Below, piece after piece: positions 19,627 through 27,309 of a stretch of DNA of 61,322 nucleotides. The notes beneath the pieces were generated by a model that was given only the letters and a program-made list of their open reading frames with translations, searched no databases and was not told the origin of the DNA. Origin of the DNA: Saprospiraceae bacterium (GTDB taxonomy: Bacteria > Bacteroidota > Bacteroidia > Chitinophagales > Saprospiraceae); NCBI GenBank assembly GCA_027488855.1, contig JAIYAV010000079.1, positions 1 to 61,322 of the forward strand, read 5' to 3'. Position numbers and translations under genes: made by a program. The first letter of the stretch is position 1; each line of letters begins with the position of its first letter.

Positions 19627-20778
19627 CTACGACTTCCCCCGCAAAGACGAGTCCCTTGCGATCAAGCGGGTTGCCAGCATCCGTTTCTCCACCTTAGGAC
19701 GCTCCATCTGTTCCAGCAACAAACGAGCCGACTCCTCCCCAATTTTCCATACTGGCTGTTCTACAGTGGTCAATGATGGCTCAATGATGGCTGAAATTGG
19801 ATCATTGCTGAAACCCACAATACCCAAATCCTGAGGAATTTTGATGCCGCGTTGCTTGGCAATGAGCATGATTTCAATGGCGCAAGGGTCGTTGACAGCA
19901 AAAATAGCATCAGGAGGCTGGGGCATATCCAGCAATTGCCGCGTACAAATCCGAGCATGCTCCTCCGTCAAATCGTGGTAAACGATCAAATCCTGATCCA
20001 GGGGCAACTGGTGTTTTTGCAAGGCATCAATATACCCCTGCAAACGTAGTCGACTGACCTGCAAGGTGACCGGGCCCGCCAGGTGCGCAATGCGCCGATA
20101 TCCCTGTTCAATCAGGTGTTCCACCGCTTGAAGAGCCCCTGAATAGTCGTCAATGATCACTTGTGGTGTGTCCAGTTCGGGGCAAACGCGGTTGAAAAAC
20201 ACCAGTGGTACTTCCTTCTGCATGACCGCCCGGAAATGGTCAAAATTTTCGGTTTTGGCGGTGATGGATACCAGAAGTCCATCTACGCGGCTGCGCAAAA
20301 GTGCTTTTACGTTGGCCACTTCGGTTTCATACGACTCATCAGACTGGCAGATCATCACATTGTAGCCCGCCTTAGAAAGCACCTCTTGAGCGCCCATGAT
20401 GAAGGTGGGAAAAAAGTAATGCCGAAACTCGGGCACCAGGATACCCACAATATTGGTGCGGCGTTTCAACAGGGCATTGGCCAAAGGGTTGGGCTGATAA
20501 TCCAGTTGCTGTGCCAAATCCAAAATCATTTTGCGGGTTGCTTCATGGATGTCGGCATGCCCACGCAAGGCGCGCGATACTGTTGATTTGGAAATACCCA
20601 ATTGATTGGCAATGTCCATGATGGTCACTTCGTGGTGGCGGCGGGTTTCTGTAGGAGTGGATGCCTCGGTGATGGTAAAATGAAAATCACAGGACTTGCA
20701 GTAGTAGCGCTGCTTACCACGCATGATCCCCGACTTTTGGATGAACTCAACCTGGTTACACTTTTTACATTTGATCAT
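19627..20778 (-). CDS. LacI-family regulator with N-terminal zinc ribbon
   Basis: A 383-aa transcription factor. Residues 51-73 are a classic LacI helix-turn-helix and hinge start (VTIMDIANQLGISKSTVSRA), followed by the periplasmic-binding-protein-like effector domain (NIVGILVPEF, DGLLVSITA, AIFAVNDPCAIEIM, LGIVGFSNDP). Unusually about 50 residues precede the HTH and form a four-cysteine zinc ribbon: C4, C7, C27 and C30 (IKCKKCNQ ... RYYCKSCDFHFT). This resembles the N-terminus of IS1-type InsA or transposase zinc ribbons. All four cysteines are intact in one uninterrupted frame, so the fusion is probably real. It diverges from the four-gene glycoside operon at 21034 and is its likely sugar-responsive repressor or activator. 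Confidence 0.9.
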   Translation of the reverse strand: MIKCKKCNQVEFIQKSGIMRGKQRYYCKSCDFHFTITEASTPTETRRHHEVTIMDIANQLGISKSTVSRALRGHADIHEATRKMILDLAQQLDYQPNPLANALLKRRTNIVGILVPEFRHYFFPTFIMGAQEVLSKAGYNVMICQSDESYETEVANVKALLRSRVDGLLVSITAKTENFDHFRAVMQKEVPLVFFNRVCPELDTPQVIIDDYSGALQAVEHLIEQGYRRIAHLAGPVTLQVSRLRLQGYIDALQKHQLPLDQDLIVYHDLTEEHARICTRQLLDMPQPPDAIFAVNDPCAIEIMLIAKQRGIKIPQDLGIVGFSNDPISAIIEPSLTTVEQPVWKIGEESARLLLEQMERPKVEKRMLATRLIARDSSLRGKS

Positions 20779-20837: not shown

Positions 20838-21033
20838 ATTAAATATTGCTATCGCTACCCGTTTCGAGAAGCTTCCCGATAGTTTTCGTGTAGTGCTCCG
20901 CCGTAGACACCATTGATTGTTTTGAAACTAGCTTTAATTTCGATCAAAAAAATGGCATTTCCGAAAGACAATGCTTCATCGGGGCTTTTTTTCTTGATTA
21001 CGTCTATTGAAAAACCCAAACAAAGAATCACTC

Positions 21034-23544
21034 ATGAAATACCTCTTTTTTTGCCTGCTTTTGATTGGAGTATTGCTGGAATCTGTTGCCCAACCAACAC
21101 AGGTCTTGAGCATGGCCAACCAGCATTTGCGGCTTCGTTGGGAAAAAACTGGAGCAGGTTGGCAACTCAAAACCATTGCGGTTAAAAAAGGCCAGATTTG
21201 GGTCAATCTAGAGCAGCCCTCCGGAGAACATACTATATTGTACAGTGCCGAAAAACCTCAATCCAAATCCGATTCCACCTTCAAAAGCATTACTGGGAAC
21301 AAATTCCCCGAAGATATCTATCACTATCAAACCAAATCATGGGACGAAAGTACCAATCCTGTCTCGCTGAACACTGCGGGTACGGCCATCCATTTTTATG
21401 CAGGCAAAGGAACACAAATTGCTCCCAACCACTTGCGTTTTGAACAAGAAACCGAGGTTGGCATCATTACTTCCGAATGGAATTTTGACCCTAAATTTCC
21501 CAATGACATCCTCGTCAAACAGACCCTCATGGTAAAAAAAGCAGGCTTTTTTTCCATTGCCAGCCCTACGCTGGCTATCGTTAACGAAAGCAATTTGGCC
21601 TGGGCTACCGTTCCCGGATACTTTCAGGGAAATTACATTCAACCCAATTTTGCGCTAGCTTACGCCTACGGGCACGGGATTCCTGCGCTGCCTGTAGTGT
21701 ACCGCGAGCGCTCGGCGAGTACCCTCTGCCCGCTGATCAGTACCAAAAATGGCTTGACCCTGGCAGTGATTGCCGACCCCACTTTATGCCGCGACCCCTG
21801 GGCCAAAGACAAAAATACCCATCAGGACTGGTTCATTGGCCTTTCGCATAAAAACCGCAAAGCGCAACTATCACCCACTCTTTACCATCCGGTATTGGGC
21901 GAGCCACAGTCTGCCCTGCAAGAGGGAGCAGCAGTAAGCCATACTGCTCGTTACAACCTCAGCGGAGGAGACTGGTTCAAGGCGATCAATCATGCAGCGT
22001 ATGACGTGTACCAACTCAAAGCGGGTTTGGCCTTGCGGCAAAGTCAACAGTCATTGACCAGCCGCATCCAGCAGATGCACCATTATTTGACCGATCCAAA
22101 AACCTCGCTCTGGAACATTGAAGAATTTCAGGGTTTAAAAATTGGCGCACAATCTTATCTGGGTGGAGTAGTGGGCTCTAATAAAGACGCCATGAAAAAC
22201 TCGGATTACGGTGCGGTATGGATGCTGGCCAAAGCGACGCAGGACACCTTGTTGACCAAAAAAGTGTTGCCTTACGCCCTCAATTTCAAGTTTGTGCAAC
22301 AAATCACTGAAGACGGCTTTTTTAAGGGATCACTCGCCGGACAGTATTACCTGGCCAAGAAGAAAAAATTTGTGGAGGAATGGGGCGAAGTCGTCGAACC
22401 CATCGCCGTGACTTACTACACCATGCTCGACATGGGGAACATCCTGCTTTTTGACCCCAACAATCAGCCGCTCAAAGAGCGCCTTCGTGCTGGTGCCGAA
22501 TGGCTGCTGAAAAACCAAAAGCCCGATGGCAGTTGGGCGGTGGCTTACGACCGCAACAACGAAGTAGAACTGTACCGCGATGTTCAAGATTTGCGTGCTA
22601 CTTTTTACGGACTGGTGGTCGCCTACCGCATTTTGAAGGATCCGAAATACCTGGCCGCGGCTCAAAAAGGGGCAGATTGGTTGCTGCAAGCCGCTGTGGC
22701 CAAAGGCAGTTATTTAGGGGTATGTGGGGATGCGCGTTACGTCCCCGATTTTGCCACAGCCCAAACTGCTCAAGCTTTTTTAGACTTGTTCGACATCACC
22801 CAACAGGTAAAATATAAGTCTGCGGCGATTAGTGCAGCAAAGTTTTATACCACTTCCATTTATACACATCCCATTCCCACGACTGTCCCTAAAATGGTCA
22901 ATGGTATAGAACGTGCTGATTGGGAAATTGCCCAGGCCGGGCTCAGTTTTGAGCACGGTGGGATTTTTGGTTCCTCCAATACCCAAGGGCCGATTCAGTT
23001 GTGCAGCCATGCGGGCTTGTTCATTCGGATGTACGGGCTGACCAAAGAGCCTATTTTTGTTGATCTGGCGCGGGCAGGGGCTTGGGGCCGCCATGCTTTT
23101 GTGGATGCCAAAACGAGTGTCGCCTCTTATTACTGGAATGCCATGACCCGTGGTGCCGGACCTTATCCCCACCACGCCTGGTGGCAAATTGGCTGGTTGA
23201 CCGATTACCTCATGGCAGAGGCAGAATTGCGCTCGAATGGCCAAGTAAAATTCCCACGAGGATTTGTGACGCCCAAGGTTGGCCCTCACCAAACCTATGG
23301 TTTTGCCCCTGGTACCATCAATGGACAAAAAGCCCAGCTAATCATTGATGAAAATCTGGTCAAAGTGGATCATCCTGCCATTGACTACATTTTGGCGACT
23401 ACCGAAAAAAAGGACAAAATTTTTGTGATCTTGCTCAACAATCGGGCACAGGCAACGGATTTCAACATCAGCATCAAGGGTGCGGCGGCCAAAAGCAAAC
23501 AATTACCCGCACTGGGTTTTGAAATTTTGACCATTGCGCAATAA
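21034..23544 (+). CDS. Secreted alpha/alpha-toroid protein, putative glycoside hydrolase or lyase
   Basis: An 836-aa secreted protein. The ATG at 21034 starts a signal peptide ending VLLESVAQ; a TTG nine codons upstream is less likely. The first 330 residues are beta-rich with Trp-containing strands. About residues 350-730 form repeated helical hairpins typical of six-hairpin (alpha/alpha) barrels (DYGAVWMLAKAT, GAEWLLKNQKPDGSWAVAYD, YLAAAQKGADWLLQAAVAKG, HHAWWQIGWLTDYLMAEAEL), and a short beta domain ends the protein. This is the layout of several glycoside hydrolase and polysaccharide lyase families, but I cannot assign one. It is first in the operon, 36 bp before the symporter gene, so it probably acts on the substrate before uptake. 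Confidence 0.75.
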   Translation: MKYLFFCLLLIGVLLESVAQPTQVLSMANQHLRLRWEKTGAGWQLKTIAVKKGQIWVNLEQPSGEHTILYSAEKPQSKSDSTFKSITGNKFPEDIYHYQTKSWDESTNPVSLNTAGTAIHFYAGKGTQIAPNHLRFEQETEVGIITSEWNFDPKFPNDILVKQTLMVKKAGFFSIASPTLAIVNESNLAWATVPGYFQGNYIQPNFALAYAYGHGIPALPVVYRERSASTLCPLISTKNGLTLAVIADPTLCRDPWAKDKNTHQDWFIGLSHKNRKAQLSPTLYHPVLGEPQSALQEGAAVSHTARYNLSGGDWFKAINHAAYDVYQLKAGLALRQSQQSLTSRIQQMHHYLTDPKTSLWNIEEFQGLKIGAQSYLGGVVGSNKDAMKNSDYGAVWMLAKATQDTLLTKKVLPYALNFKFVQQITEDGFFKGSLAGQYYLAKKKKFVEEWGEVVEPIAVTYYTMLDMGNILLFDPNNQPLKERLRAGAEWLLKNQKPDGSWAVAYDRNNEVELYRDVQDLRATFYGLVVAYRILKDPKYLAAAQKGADWLLQAAVAKGSYLGVCGDARYVPDFATAQTAQAFLDLFDITQQVKYKSAAISAAKFYTTSIYTHPIPTTVPKMVNGIERADWEIAQAGLSFEHGGIFGSSNTQGPIQLCSHAGLFIRMYGLTKEPIFVDLARAGAWGRHAFVDAKTSVASYYWNAMTRGAGPYPHHAWWQIGWLTDYLMAEAELRSNGQVKFPRGFVTPKVGPHQTYGFAPGTINGQKAQLIIDENLVKVDHPAIDYILATTEKKDKIFVILLNNRAQATDFNISIKGAAAKSKQLPALGFEILTIAQ

Positions 23545-25299: not shown

Positions 25300-27309
25300 A
25301 TGCGCCTGATTGTTTTCTTTTTATTGCTATCCATCACCAGTTTTGCCCAATTCACGCTGCGGCAACCCGACGCGATTCCACTACATGGTCAATGGGCCTT
25401 TGCACTGGATGCCCGCGATATAGGTGAAGCGCGGGGTTGGTACCAGGAGGCTTTTGCTACCAATGGTTGGGATCAGGTCACGGTGCCCCACTGTTTTTCG
25501 GTAGACCCACGGTATCAGTTTTACACTGGAACGGTTTGGTACCGGAAGAGTTTCCTTTGGCAACCCCAGGCTGGCAAGCGCATATTGCTGCATTTTGACG
25601 CAGCGTATTACTCGACCACCATTTGGCTCAACAACCAAAAAGTAGGTAACCATGAAGGGGGATATACGCCGTTTCATTTTGATGTGACCAACCTGCTCAA
25701 GGCGGGCGATAACTTTTTGTCGATATCCATCAACAATGATACTTGGCAAACGGGCTCCATTCCGGGAGCCAAAGACAACGGCAATCCCAACGACCCCTTC
25801 ATGGGCTGGATGAACTACGGGGGCCTCAATCGTCCGGTTTATTTGACCGTCGAACCGGAGGTATACCTGGAAAATTTGAAGGTAGAAACTACCCCCGATT
25901 TGGCCAAAGGCACCGCCCTGGTACGGGTGAAAGCAAGGGTACGCAACGCCTCATCCCAAAGCAGTTTAGCTAAAATCAATCCACTGATTACCTTCGAAAA
26001 TCAGCAACTCAAGTTGATTTGGAAAACCAATCCAAGCACCATTCTTGCTGGCCAAACCGCAATCGTAGAAGCTGAAACCAGCCTAAAAACCACTGAAGTC
26101 AAACTTTGGAATCTGGACGAACCCAATTTGTACCAACTCAAAGTGGGCTTGGGCGCAGACACCTTGGCCAGTTCATTCGGCATCCGCAAACTGGAAATCC
26201 AAAATGCCCAACTCTTACTCAACGGTGTGCCTATCCGTGTTGGCGGCGGCAACCGCGTGGTGGATTATCCCGGGCAGGGTGCCCTGGAGCCTGACTGGCT
26301 GTTGGAAAAAGATTTTCGCCTGATGAAAGAAGCGGGGATGGAGTTTCAACGCCTGACCCATTACCCGCCCAGCGAAAGTTTTTATGATTTGGCCGATCGC
26401 TACGGCATGTTGATCATTGCCGAGCCAGGCAACTGGCAACTCACGCCCCGACAAATGGACAACGATACGTTCCGCCGCAAGTTTCAACAGCAATTCCGCG
26501 AAATGATGGAGCGCGACTGGAATCATCCCAGCGTAATCGCCTACAGCGTGGGCAATGAATACCTGTCGGAAACACCCGCTGGGCAGCGCTGGACCAAAGA
26601 CATGATCGCCTATGGTCGTGGCCTTGATGCTACCCGACTGTACACTTTTGCGAGCATGCGCCTCAATATTTTGCCCCAAAAACCGGAAGACGAGGCCAGC
26701 CAATACTGCGACTTTATCTGTACCAACACCTATGGCGGACACGCAAAAGTGCTGGATCATATCCACAAATTGTATCCCGACAAACCCATCCTGATCAGCG
26801 AATGGGGTATCCGCGCTGACAATGCCGCCGGTGAAGCCGGACAAGTAACGCACCTGGAAAGTGTCATGCCGGAAATCCGCAAACGCCCCTATGTGGTGGG
26901 CGCAGCCTGGTGGACGTACAACGATTACCAAAGCCGTTATGTGGGTACCAACCCCAATGGTTACCGCCCCTGGGGTATGGTTGGCCCCGATCGCAGCCCA
27001 CGCCAATTGTATGCAGCCCATCGCCGCGAAATGGCGCCTTTTACCCTCGAAAAAATAAGCTTCCAGTTGGGGGGACAAGGGATGCATGAATTGCTGGTAC
27101 GTATAAATGCCCGCAACGATTTCCCGGCTTATCCGCTAAAAGGTTATACCCTCAAAACCAAAGATGCCAATGTAAAAATCCCCAATTTGCAGCCCGGACA
27201 AAGCGCAGAAATGAAAATTCCGGTACGTGGTTTTGACAAAAACCTCAAACTGGAAGTCTGGAAACCGACGGGCTTCTCAGTACTGAACGAAACCTTTGAA
27301 TTAAAGTAA
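25300..27309 (+). CDS. Secreted GH2-family glycoside hydrolase (beta-galactosidase/glucuronidase type)
   Basis: A 669-aa retaining glycosidase. The ATG at 25300 opens the signal peptide MRLIVFFLLLSITSFAQ; an in-frame ATG at 25273 would lengthen the n-region and overlap the symporter gene. Order of domains is a jelly-roll sugar-binding domain (about 35-180, with VTVPHCFSVDP and FDAAYYSTTIWLNNQKVG), an immunoglobulin-like domain, then the TIM barrel. The acid/base Glu lies in SVGNEYLSE near residue 420 and the nucleophile Glu in ILISEWGIRAD near 501. The substrate is a beta-linked galactoside, glucuronide or mannoside; the sequence does not decide. Confidence 0.9.
   Translation: MRLIVFFLLLSITSFAQFTLRQPDAIPLHGQWAFALDARDIGEARGWYQEAFATNGWDQVTVPHCFSVDPRYQFYTGTVWYRKSFLWQPQAGKRILLHFDAAYYSTTIWLNNQKVGNHEGGYTPFHFDVTNLLKAGDNFLSISINNDTWQTGSIPGAKDNGNPNDPFMGWMNYGGLNRPVYLTVEPEVYLENLKVETTPDLAKGTALVRVKARVRNASSQSSLAKINPLITFENQQLKLIWKTNPSTILAGQTAIVEAETSLKTTEVKLWNLDEPNLYQLKVGLGADTLASSFGIRKLEIQNAQLLLNGVPIRVGGGNRVVDYPGQGALEPDWLLEKDFRLMKEAGMEFQRLTHYPPSESFYDLADRYGMLIIAEPGNWQLTPRQMDNDTFRRKFQQQFREMMERDWNHPSVIAYSVGNEYLSETPAGQRWTKDMIAYGRGLDATRLYTFASMRLNILPQKPEDEASQYCDFICTNTYGGHAKVLDHIHKLYPDKPILISEWGIRADNAAGEAGQVTHLESVMPEIRKRPYVVGAAWWTYNDYQSRYVGTNPNGYRPWGMVGPDRSPRQLYAAHRREMAPFTLEKISFQLGGQGMHELLVRINARNDFPAYPLKGYTLKTKDANVKIPNLQPGQSAEMKIPVRGFDKNLKLEVWKPTGFSVLNETFELK

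Follow-up and report, generated by a model that had tools for sequence, protein, structure and literature searches.

A 383-residue protein encoded in the analysed stretch of Saprospiraceae DNA (61,322 nucleotides, here called the window) is a LacI/GalR regulator with a transposase-type zinc ribbon ahead of its helix-turn-helix (HTH). Upstream of the genes for such proteins there is often an operator-like element, and the outer bases of this element, (C)TA, are associated with the presence of the ribbon. Sequence comparisons suggest that the protein is probably a regulator of SusCD-type loci in which a ribbon of the IS1/IS1595 type extends the recognition of the operator.

The regulator gene is found at 19627..20778 on the minus strand and starts with an ATG. 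Pfam places the LacI HTH (PF00356) at residues 52-97 with 47.9 bits (gathering cut-off 27), and the ligand domain is matched by PF13377 (residues 219-378, 122.4 bits) and PF00532 (residues 110-358, 101.6 bits). The predicted model of the whole protein resembles the structures of RbsR (9ny8), CcpA (3oqo), PurR (2pue) and LacI (1efa). A hinge helix is predicted at 98-102 with low confidence, as residues 99-105 have a pLDDT below 50 in the AlphaFold model. The HTH of LacI proteins normally stands within the first few residues, which is a usual and not a defining feature. In the window protein it begins only at residue 51-52, behind a zinc ribbon (residues 1-37 with C4, C7, C27 and C30; 20668..20778, minus strand) and a variable linker (residues 38-50; 20629..20667, minus strand). 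The HTH segment itself, delimited by PF00356 and sequence comparison, comprises residues 51-97 (20488..20628, minus strand) with the recognition helix SKSTVSRAL. An earlier note on this DNA had described 50 residues with a CxxC...CxxC ribbon in front of the HTH, and the open reading frame, the four cysteines and the PF00356 match from residue 52 agree with that description. The limits of the ribbon are given by NF050000 matches, conservation and predicted strands (13-19, 22-27 and 32-35, forming a three-stranded block with pLDDT 86-89), and those of the linker by codon changes and a pLDDT below 50 at 39-48. The remainder of the 383 residues is LacI, a DDE catalytic domain is absent and the window protein is not a transposase.

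When the N-terminus and the whole protein were searched separately, as the note had proposed, NF050000 and an IS1 model were obtained for the ribbon and LacI families for the remainder. The N-terminal 51 residues alone match NF050000 (IS1_IS1595_Zn) with 26.4-26.6 bits, just below the curated cut-off of 28, and also the IS1 transposase model NF033558. Both models are matched at E<=0.001 by all 34 aligned ribbons (best NF050000 E 1.3e-9), which bears out the suggestion that the ribbon is like that of IS1-type InsA or transposases; Pfam InsA (PF03811) is matched at the same level by 7 of the 34. From this likeness we infer that the ribbon may have come from a transposase, the direction of the domain capture at which the note had hinted. 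When the ribbon sequence was compared with solved structures, no match was better than E 0.055, and a fold search with the ribbon model gave no match below E 0.67, the top one being a plant Dof domain on DNA; these two results are given no weight.

A protein search of the same genome rendered 8 matches. One other of these, L002 (44% identical), has the ribbon, and a ribbon profile finds only the window protein and L002 in this genome at E<=1e-5. Four other genomes of the genus were searched: the ribbon is present in orthologues from two of them (G001 and G004, 93% and 83% identical), and G002 and G003 gave no match covering it. When the genome collection was scanned with a profile of ribbon and HTH, 56 loci were obtained; the match spans both domains in 32 (L055-L086), and those inspected among the others were transposase-like or partial in look. 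In an even sample of 395 Bacteroidota genomes, the own genome included, six had a match at E<=1e-15 that begins at the first or second position of the profile. Judged by these sequences, the ribbon-LacIs are an old and widespread Bacteroidota subfamily present across several groups and not the result of a local event. A recent capture in this strain was ruled out by the same spread. The contig of one locus, L082, bears the label Williamsia (Actinomycetota) and is probably a mislabelled MAG: it has a susC-like gene, and the LacI tree places L082 with Chitinophagaceae.

The candidate operator in the window is a 34-bp element found by pattern match, CTATCGGGAAGCTTCTCGAAACGGGTAGCGATAG (20849..20882, minus strand), 70 bp from the ATG of the regulator and 151 bp from that of the divergent gene. 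A pattern match of this kind occurred in none of 100 shuffles of the window. The element can be read as a pair of LacI dyads whose centres are separated by 12 bp, CTAyCGggAAC-GnTnCCGnAAAC-GnTnCCGrTAG. The outer CTA of the left half-site (20880..20882, minus strand) and the outer TAG of the right half-site, which is CTA on the other strand (20849..20851, minus strand), are the proposed ribbon contacts on the basis of the flank comparisons described below. LacI half-sites usually have 8-10 bp; the half-site CTAyCGggAAC has 11 bp and recurs upstream of many ribbon-LacI genes. A promoter and terminator scan rendered nothing above shuffles.

Among the upstream regions read for 35 ribbon genes, some of which are near-copies, 24 match CTAYYR-22 bp-YRRTAG, and in 22 the match holds for the strict form CTAYCG-22-CGRTAG, where the chance expectation for the element pattern is 0.025 regions. 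A scan of gaps from 10 to 39 gave 22 bp in 22 of the 35 regions, a gap of 10 in one and all other gaps in none, and a spacing artefact was ruled out because only the gap of 22 is enriched. Some ribbon genes have other arrangements: L002 and L084 have wider dyads with centres 22 and 21 bp apart, and L076 has a single 22-bp dyad bordered by CTA and TAG. Double dyads with 12-bp spacing are also seen with the ribbon-less LacI genes L003, L007, L013, L014, L016, L029, L031 and L154. Two dimers might be accommodated on such overlapping dyads by alternative registers or by a special tetramer.

The element is not confined to the regulator gene. In one Runella genome (L125/L126), where the regulator is about 19 kb from the orthologous susC, the full element is found about 155 bp before susC and not before the regulator (L057), which is preceded only by the half-like GTTCCCGATAG. 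A second copy in G001, about 11 kb from the first, lies about 190 bp upstream of a FAD-oxidoreductase gene. Between the ribbon-LacI and this second copy (L124:5973-14535), G001 has TOTE-type conflict genes, encoding a reverse transcriptase with HisKin-conflict, a helicase with TBP-TOTE, and S1CSD-TOTE domains. In the own genome the strict pattern, which weaker sites would escape, has 4 exact matches, three of them unlike the element, and hence no second convincing copy; a reversed-pattern control gave 3 matches.

The relation between the outer bases and the ribbon was analysed in a comparison set of 94 distinct LacI proteins, 42 with and 52 without the ribbon. A core matrix was made from 12 ribbon sites; it scores the inner 26 positions and ignores the 4 outermost bp on either side, and it was run on the 94 upstream regions with a threshold above the 98th percentile of 940 shuffles. 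Cores above the threshold were found in 34 of the 42 ribbon genes and 21 of the 52 ribbon-less genes, and one and six of these cores, respectively, are in the range of the shuffles. CTA was present at 59 of 68 ends with the ribbon compared with none of 42 without it, although many of the sampled proteins are close relatives and the ends are not independent counts. For cores above the best shuffle (15.46) the figures are 33 versus 15 genes and 59/66 versus 0/30 ends. The information at positions -11 to -8 is 1.47, 1.44, 1.74 and 1.03 bits with the ribbon and 0.41, 0.49, 0.21 and 0.10 bits without it, calculated from 21 ribbon and 11 ribbon-less hand-chosen sites after exclusion of near-copies and weak sites. 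The ribbon-less sites L003, L013, L014, L029 and L158 have CTA one base further in at the left end. The matrix found no core upstream of the remaining 8 of the 42 ribbon genes, among them L002, L084 and L076 with the other dyad arrangements given above; a half-like site was seen by eye at two more, L033 (the same gene as L057) and L083, and no operator-like site was seen upstream of the ribbon genes L069, L080 and L081.

A later sample was fetched using a profile without the ribbon; at E<=1e-140 this profile matched 79 of the 150 genomes searched in the G253 family and 23 of the 294 in the G1019 family. From the G253 family 60 of 62 new places were taken, the other two being already in the collection, and after removal of 12 already-seen proteins there were 77 new ones, 39 with and 38 without the ribbon. 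Sites were located with the core matrix for ribbon genes, and for ribbon-less genes with a second end-blind score or otherwise the matrix; they were found in 36 of the 38 ribbon-less genes, one of them (L241) doubtful. TA was present at 76 of 78 ends with the ribbon versus 12 of 72 without, and CTA at 49 of 78 versus 0 of 72. Position -11 varies, the ribbon ends being CTA (49), ATA (16) or GTA (11), with two of the 78 lacking TA, and the 12 ribbon-less TA ends are all TTA. The idea that the CTA flank is a by-product of the first regular expression was excluded by the end-blind matrix together with these later sequences.

The inner bases follow another part of the protein. KSTVSRAL and inner GGGAA occur together in most genes that have this helix, with or without the ribbon, the exceptions among ribbon genes being L066, L070 and L076. 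The inner bases are different in ribbon genes whose helix is FSTVSKAL (L002/L084), NSTVSRAL (L079) or ATTVSRAL (L085), yet each of these genes retains CTA at one or both outer ends. Because the helix tracks the inner bases and the outer TA tracks the ribbon, the inner bases may be assigned to the HTH and the outer ones to the ribbon.

The history of the ribbon was examined in a midpoint-rooted tree built on the part of the protein behind the ribbon, and in a second tree that was larger, quicker to make and had an outgroup. All 42 ribbon proteins fall in one clade (support 100/96), together with 12 that lack the ribbon. Eleven ribbon-less proteins form a 13-row subclade together with Fibrisoma, nested in the ribbon clade, and the outgroup tree agrees. 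Operators of the nested ribbon-less clade have no CTA, and their dyad centres are separated by 19-22 bp, compared with 12 bp when the ribbon is present. The ribbon thus appears to have a function, because the operator flanks have also changed in the clade that lacks it. According to the earlier note, close homologues lacking the ribbon while the upstream codons drift freely would speak against a working ribbon; a nested clade without it does exist, and this counter-evidence thus occurs in part, but the changed operator flanks of that clade speak for a function.

Fibrisoma (L063, L064) has the ribbon but sits among ribbon-less relatives in the tree. Its ligand domain is 88% identical to that of the ribbon-less L219, the HTH and hinge are closest to those of the ribbon-bearing Siphonobacter L061 (81%), and its operator is of the ribbon type with 12-bp spacing, flanked by ATA or ACA at one end and by TAG at the opposite one. 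It looks like a natural chimera that has a ribbon-type DNA-binding end together with a ribbon-type operator. Fibrisoma alone cannot separate the effect of the ribbon from that of the HTH, because the HTH came with the ribbon. The tree offers few independent contrasts, two on well-supported branches and three on all; the flank changed in the same way in 1.7 of 2 contrasts on average and never in the opposite way (sign test p 0.5). With two contrasts this test of correlated evolution was underpowered. Its scan rendered three ribbon rows without CTA, of which L047 and L058 are wrong sites when judged by the core-matrix scan and L185 is a true exception. That the ribbon is a separable add-on, reading three extra bp per half-site and exchanged or lost with the matching operator flanks, as Fibrisoma and the nested ribbon-less clade would illustrate, is a proposal to which we give an even chance.

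Another explanation is that the outer CTA is read by the HTH and hinge, and that the ribbon serves in dimer or tetramer assembly on the double dyad or in contact with RNA polymerase. Most ribbon-less relatives also deviate from the ribbon proteins in residues of the HTH loop and the hinge, and these residues co-vary with ribbon loss, as does the wider spacing in the nested clade, in a tree where the contrasts are few. Part of the flank effect may belong to the HTH and hinge because the differences in loop, hinge and spacing follow the loss of the ribbon. Against this, L038 lacks both ribbon and CTA although it has a KSTVSRAL-type helix and a 12-bp double dyad, and other ribbon-less LacIs with 12-bp spacing also lack CTA at that place. 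L038 argues for the ribbon reading CTA, with a tree place that is unsure owing to a long branch. Conversely, L079, L085, L034 and L002, which have the ribbon with other helices or loops, keep the outer TA, and the single dyad of L076 is still flanked by CTA and TAG. Reading of CTA by the HTH and hinge is therefore considered rather unlikely.

The ribbon itself is strongly conserved. CxxC-x19-CxxC is found in all 42 distinct ribbon-LacIs collected, a count to be read with the fact that the class was defined beforehand by the four-position cysteine pattern, and the last cysteine is 18-29 residues from the start of the HTH. Across the 34 aligned ribbons C4, C7, G17, Q23, R24, C27, C30 and F34 are invariant and M1, R20, K22, Y25 and K28 nearly so. 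The four cysteines would be expected to bind zinc. Metal sites in regulators can be sensory, and the presence of the cysteines in all 42 proteins would suit a sensor of zinc or redox state through which repression is modulated. However, a sensor leaves the operator association unexplained, R20, K22, Q23, R24 and K28 are conserved as well and the neighbours are sugar-uptake genes, which makes this role quite improbable.

In three species pairs, 8 of 10, 11 of 13 and 12 of 15 differing ribbon codons are silent, whereas 6 of 10, 6 of 8 and 7 of 10 differing codons in the 13-codon linker change the amino acid. The ribbon is thus translated and conserved, because its codon differences are mostly silent while the linker drifts. 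The idea of a vestigial ribbon or a wrongly called start, with a working protein from Met54, would suit the usual start of LacI proteins just before the HTH and the one clade without a ribbon, but it is hardly credible given the purifying selection on the ribbon codons beside a drifting linker, the near-invariant basic residues and a methionine at the equivalent place in 8 of 42 ribbon proteins; a start at Met54, which the earlier note had named as possible counter-evidence, is unlikely, and a mis-called start was ruled out by the codon pattern and the methionine count.

The presumed target operon is divergent from the regulator. Its first gene (836 amino acids; 21034..23544, plus strand) has no Pfam family at E<=1e-4 and a weak LanC-like similarity; copies that are 73-79% identical are found in L056 and L128, and in L056 the gene is also divergent to the regulator. 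Pfam identifies the genes that follow as a sodium:solute symporter (PF00474; 23580..25289, plus strand), a glycoside hydrolase of family 2 (25303..27309, plus strand) and a FAD-dependent oxidoreductase (PF12831; 27328..29643, plus strand). The glycoside operon had been suggested as the target, which is plausible with a 34-bp candidate operator between the two genes. Of the 32 loci L055-L086, 29 have a susC-like gene divergent to the regulator; the three without one are L056, L080 and L081. Of these genes, 24 are 48-83% identical to the G001 susC and five (L057, L078, L083, L084 and L085) 28-34%; Pfam searches on examples found a TonB plug domain in one susC-like gene and SusD domains in two. 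In the window there is no susC beside the regulator, and the closest susC match of the own genome reaches 43%. The orthologous susC seems to be lost or unassembled in this genome, which consists of 422 contigs. The second ribbon-LacI of the genome (L002/L127, G000:C173) is divergent from another susCD pair, and its operator is of the type CTAyTGACAAC with dyad centres 22 bp apart.

In the proposed mechanism, the DNA-binding end would consist of the zinc ribbon and the LacI HTH in tandem, joined by a flexible linker. The HTH would read the inner bases of each half-site (CGGGAA beside the dyad centre in the window) and the ribbon the next bases outward, (C)TA at -11 to -9, which would make the half-site 11 bp long. 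The protein would repress the divergent operon, and perhaps itself, until a sugar binds to the ligand domain. The target operon would be susCD in most of the relatives examined, and the 836-residue gene, the symporter, the GH2 and the FAD-oxidoreductase in the own genome. The earlier idea of two DNA-contacting modules in one protein fits the operator-flank data, from which we infer the contact between ribbon and DNA.

LacI regulators and IS1-type ribbons are already known, and what appears to be new is their stable combination with a matching longer operator. No description of a LacI zinc-ribbon fusion or its regulons was found among the titles and abstract openings of the open-licence literature. 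LacI proteins are textbook repressors and a standard chassis for engineered switches. If the proposal is true, it provides a natural example of a repressor whose operator is lengthened by one module with a predicted base code, and it would show a transposase-type DNA-binding module at work in a host regulator. The ribbon-less relatives and the natural chimera are ready-made controls with which the evolution of operator length and specificity can be tested.

Compared with known systems, the protein is similar to the LacI/GalR family (RbsR, CcpA, PurR, LacI) in having an HTH, a hinge and a ligand domain like periplasmic binding proteins. It differs from them in the stretch of 50 residues, zinc ribbon included, that precedes the HTH and in the 11-bp half-site, as well as in the double dyad 12 bp apart, though this is also found with some ribbon-less LacI genes here. 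The NrdR repressor differs in having an ATP-cone sensor and not a LacI ligand domain and HTH, and the fold match of the ribbon model to NrdR (9fvr) was non-significant (E 1.1). The short open reading frames L198 (G170:C1:1242871-1242978) and L199 (G194:C12:363380-363487), of 161 and 178 codons, have the same ribbon type followed by an apparent HTH and no ligand domain. By eye their HTH is transposase-like and there is no room for a DDE domain; they are possibly domesticated regulators. According to PMC12428005, which cites Ohta 2004, specific binding of IS1 InsA to the terminal repeats needs both its zinc finger and its HTH, and by this example zinc modules of this sort can read DNA. The IS1/IS1595 transposases (InsA/InsAB') share with the window protein the ribbon type, as the model matches of the 34 ribbons indicate, and, according to the same paper, a DNA-binding end that combines a zinc motif with an HTH. 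Unlike them, the window protein has an HTH of the LacI type and no DDE domain, and its proposed target is a promoter operator and not a terminal repeat.
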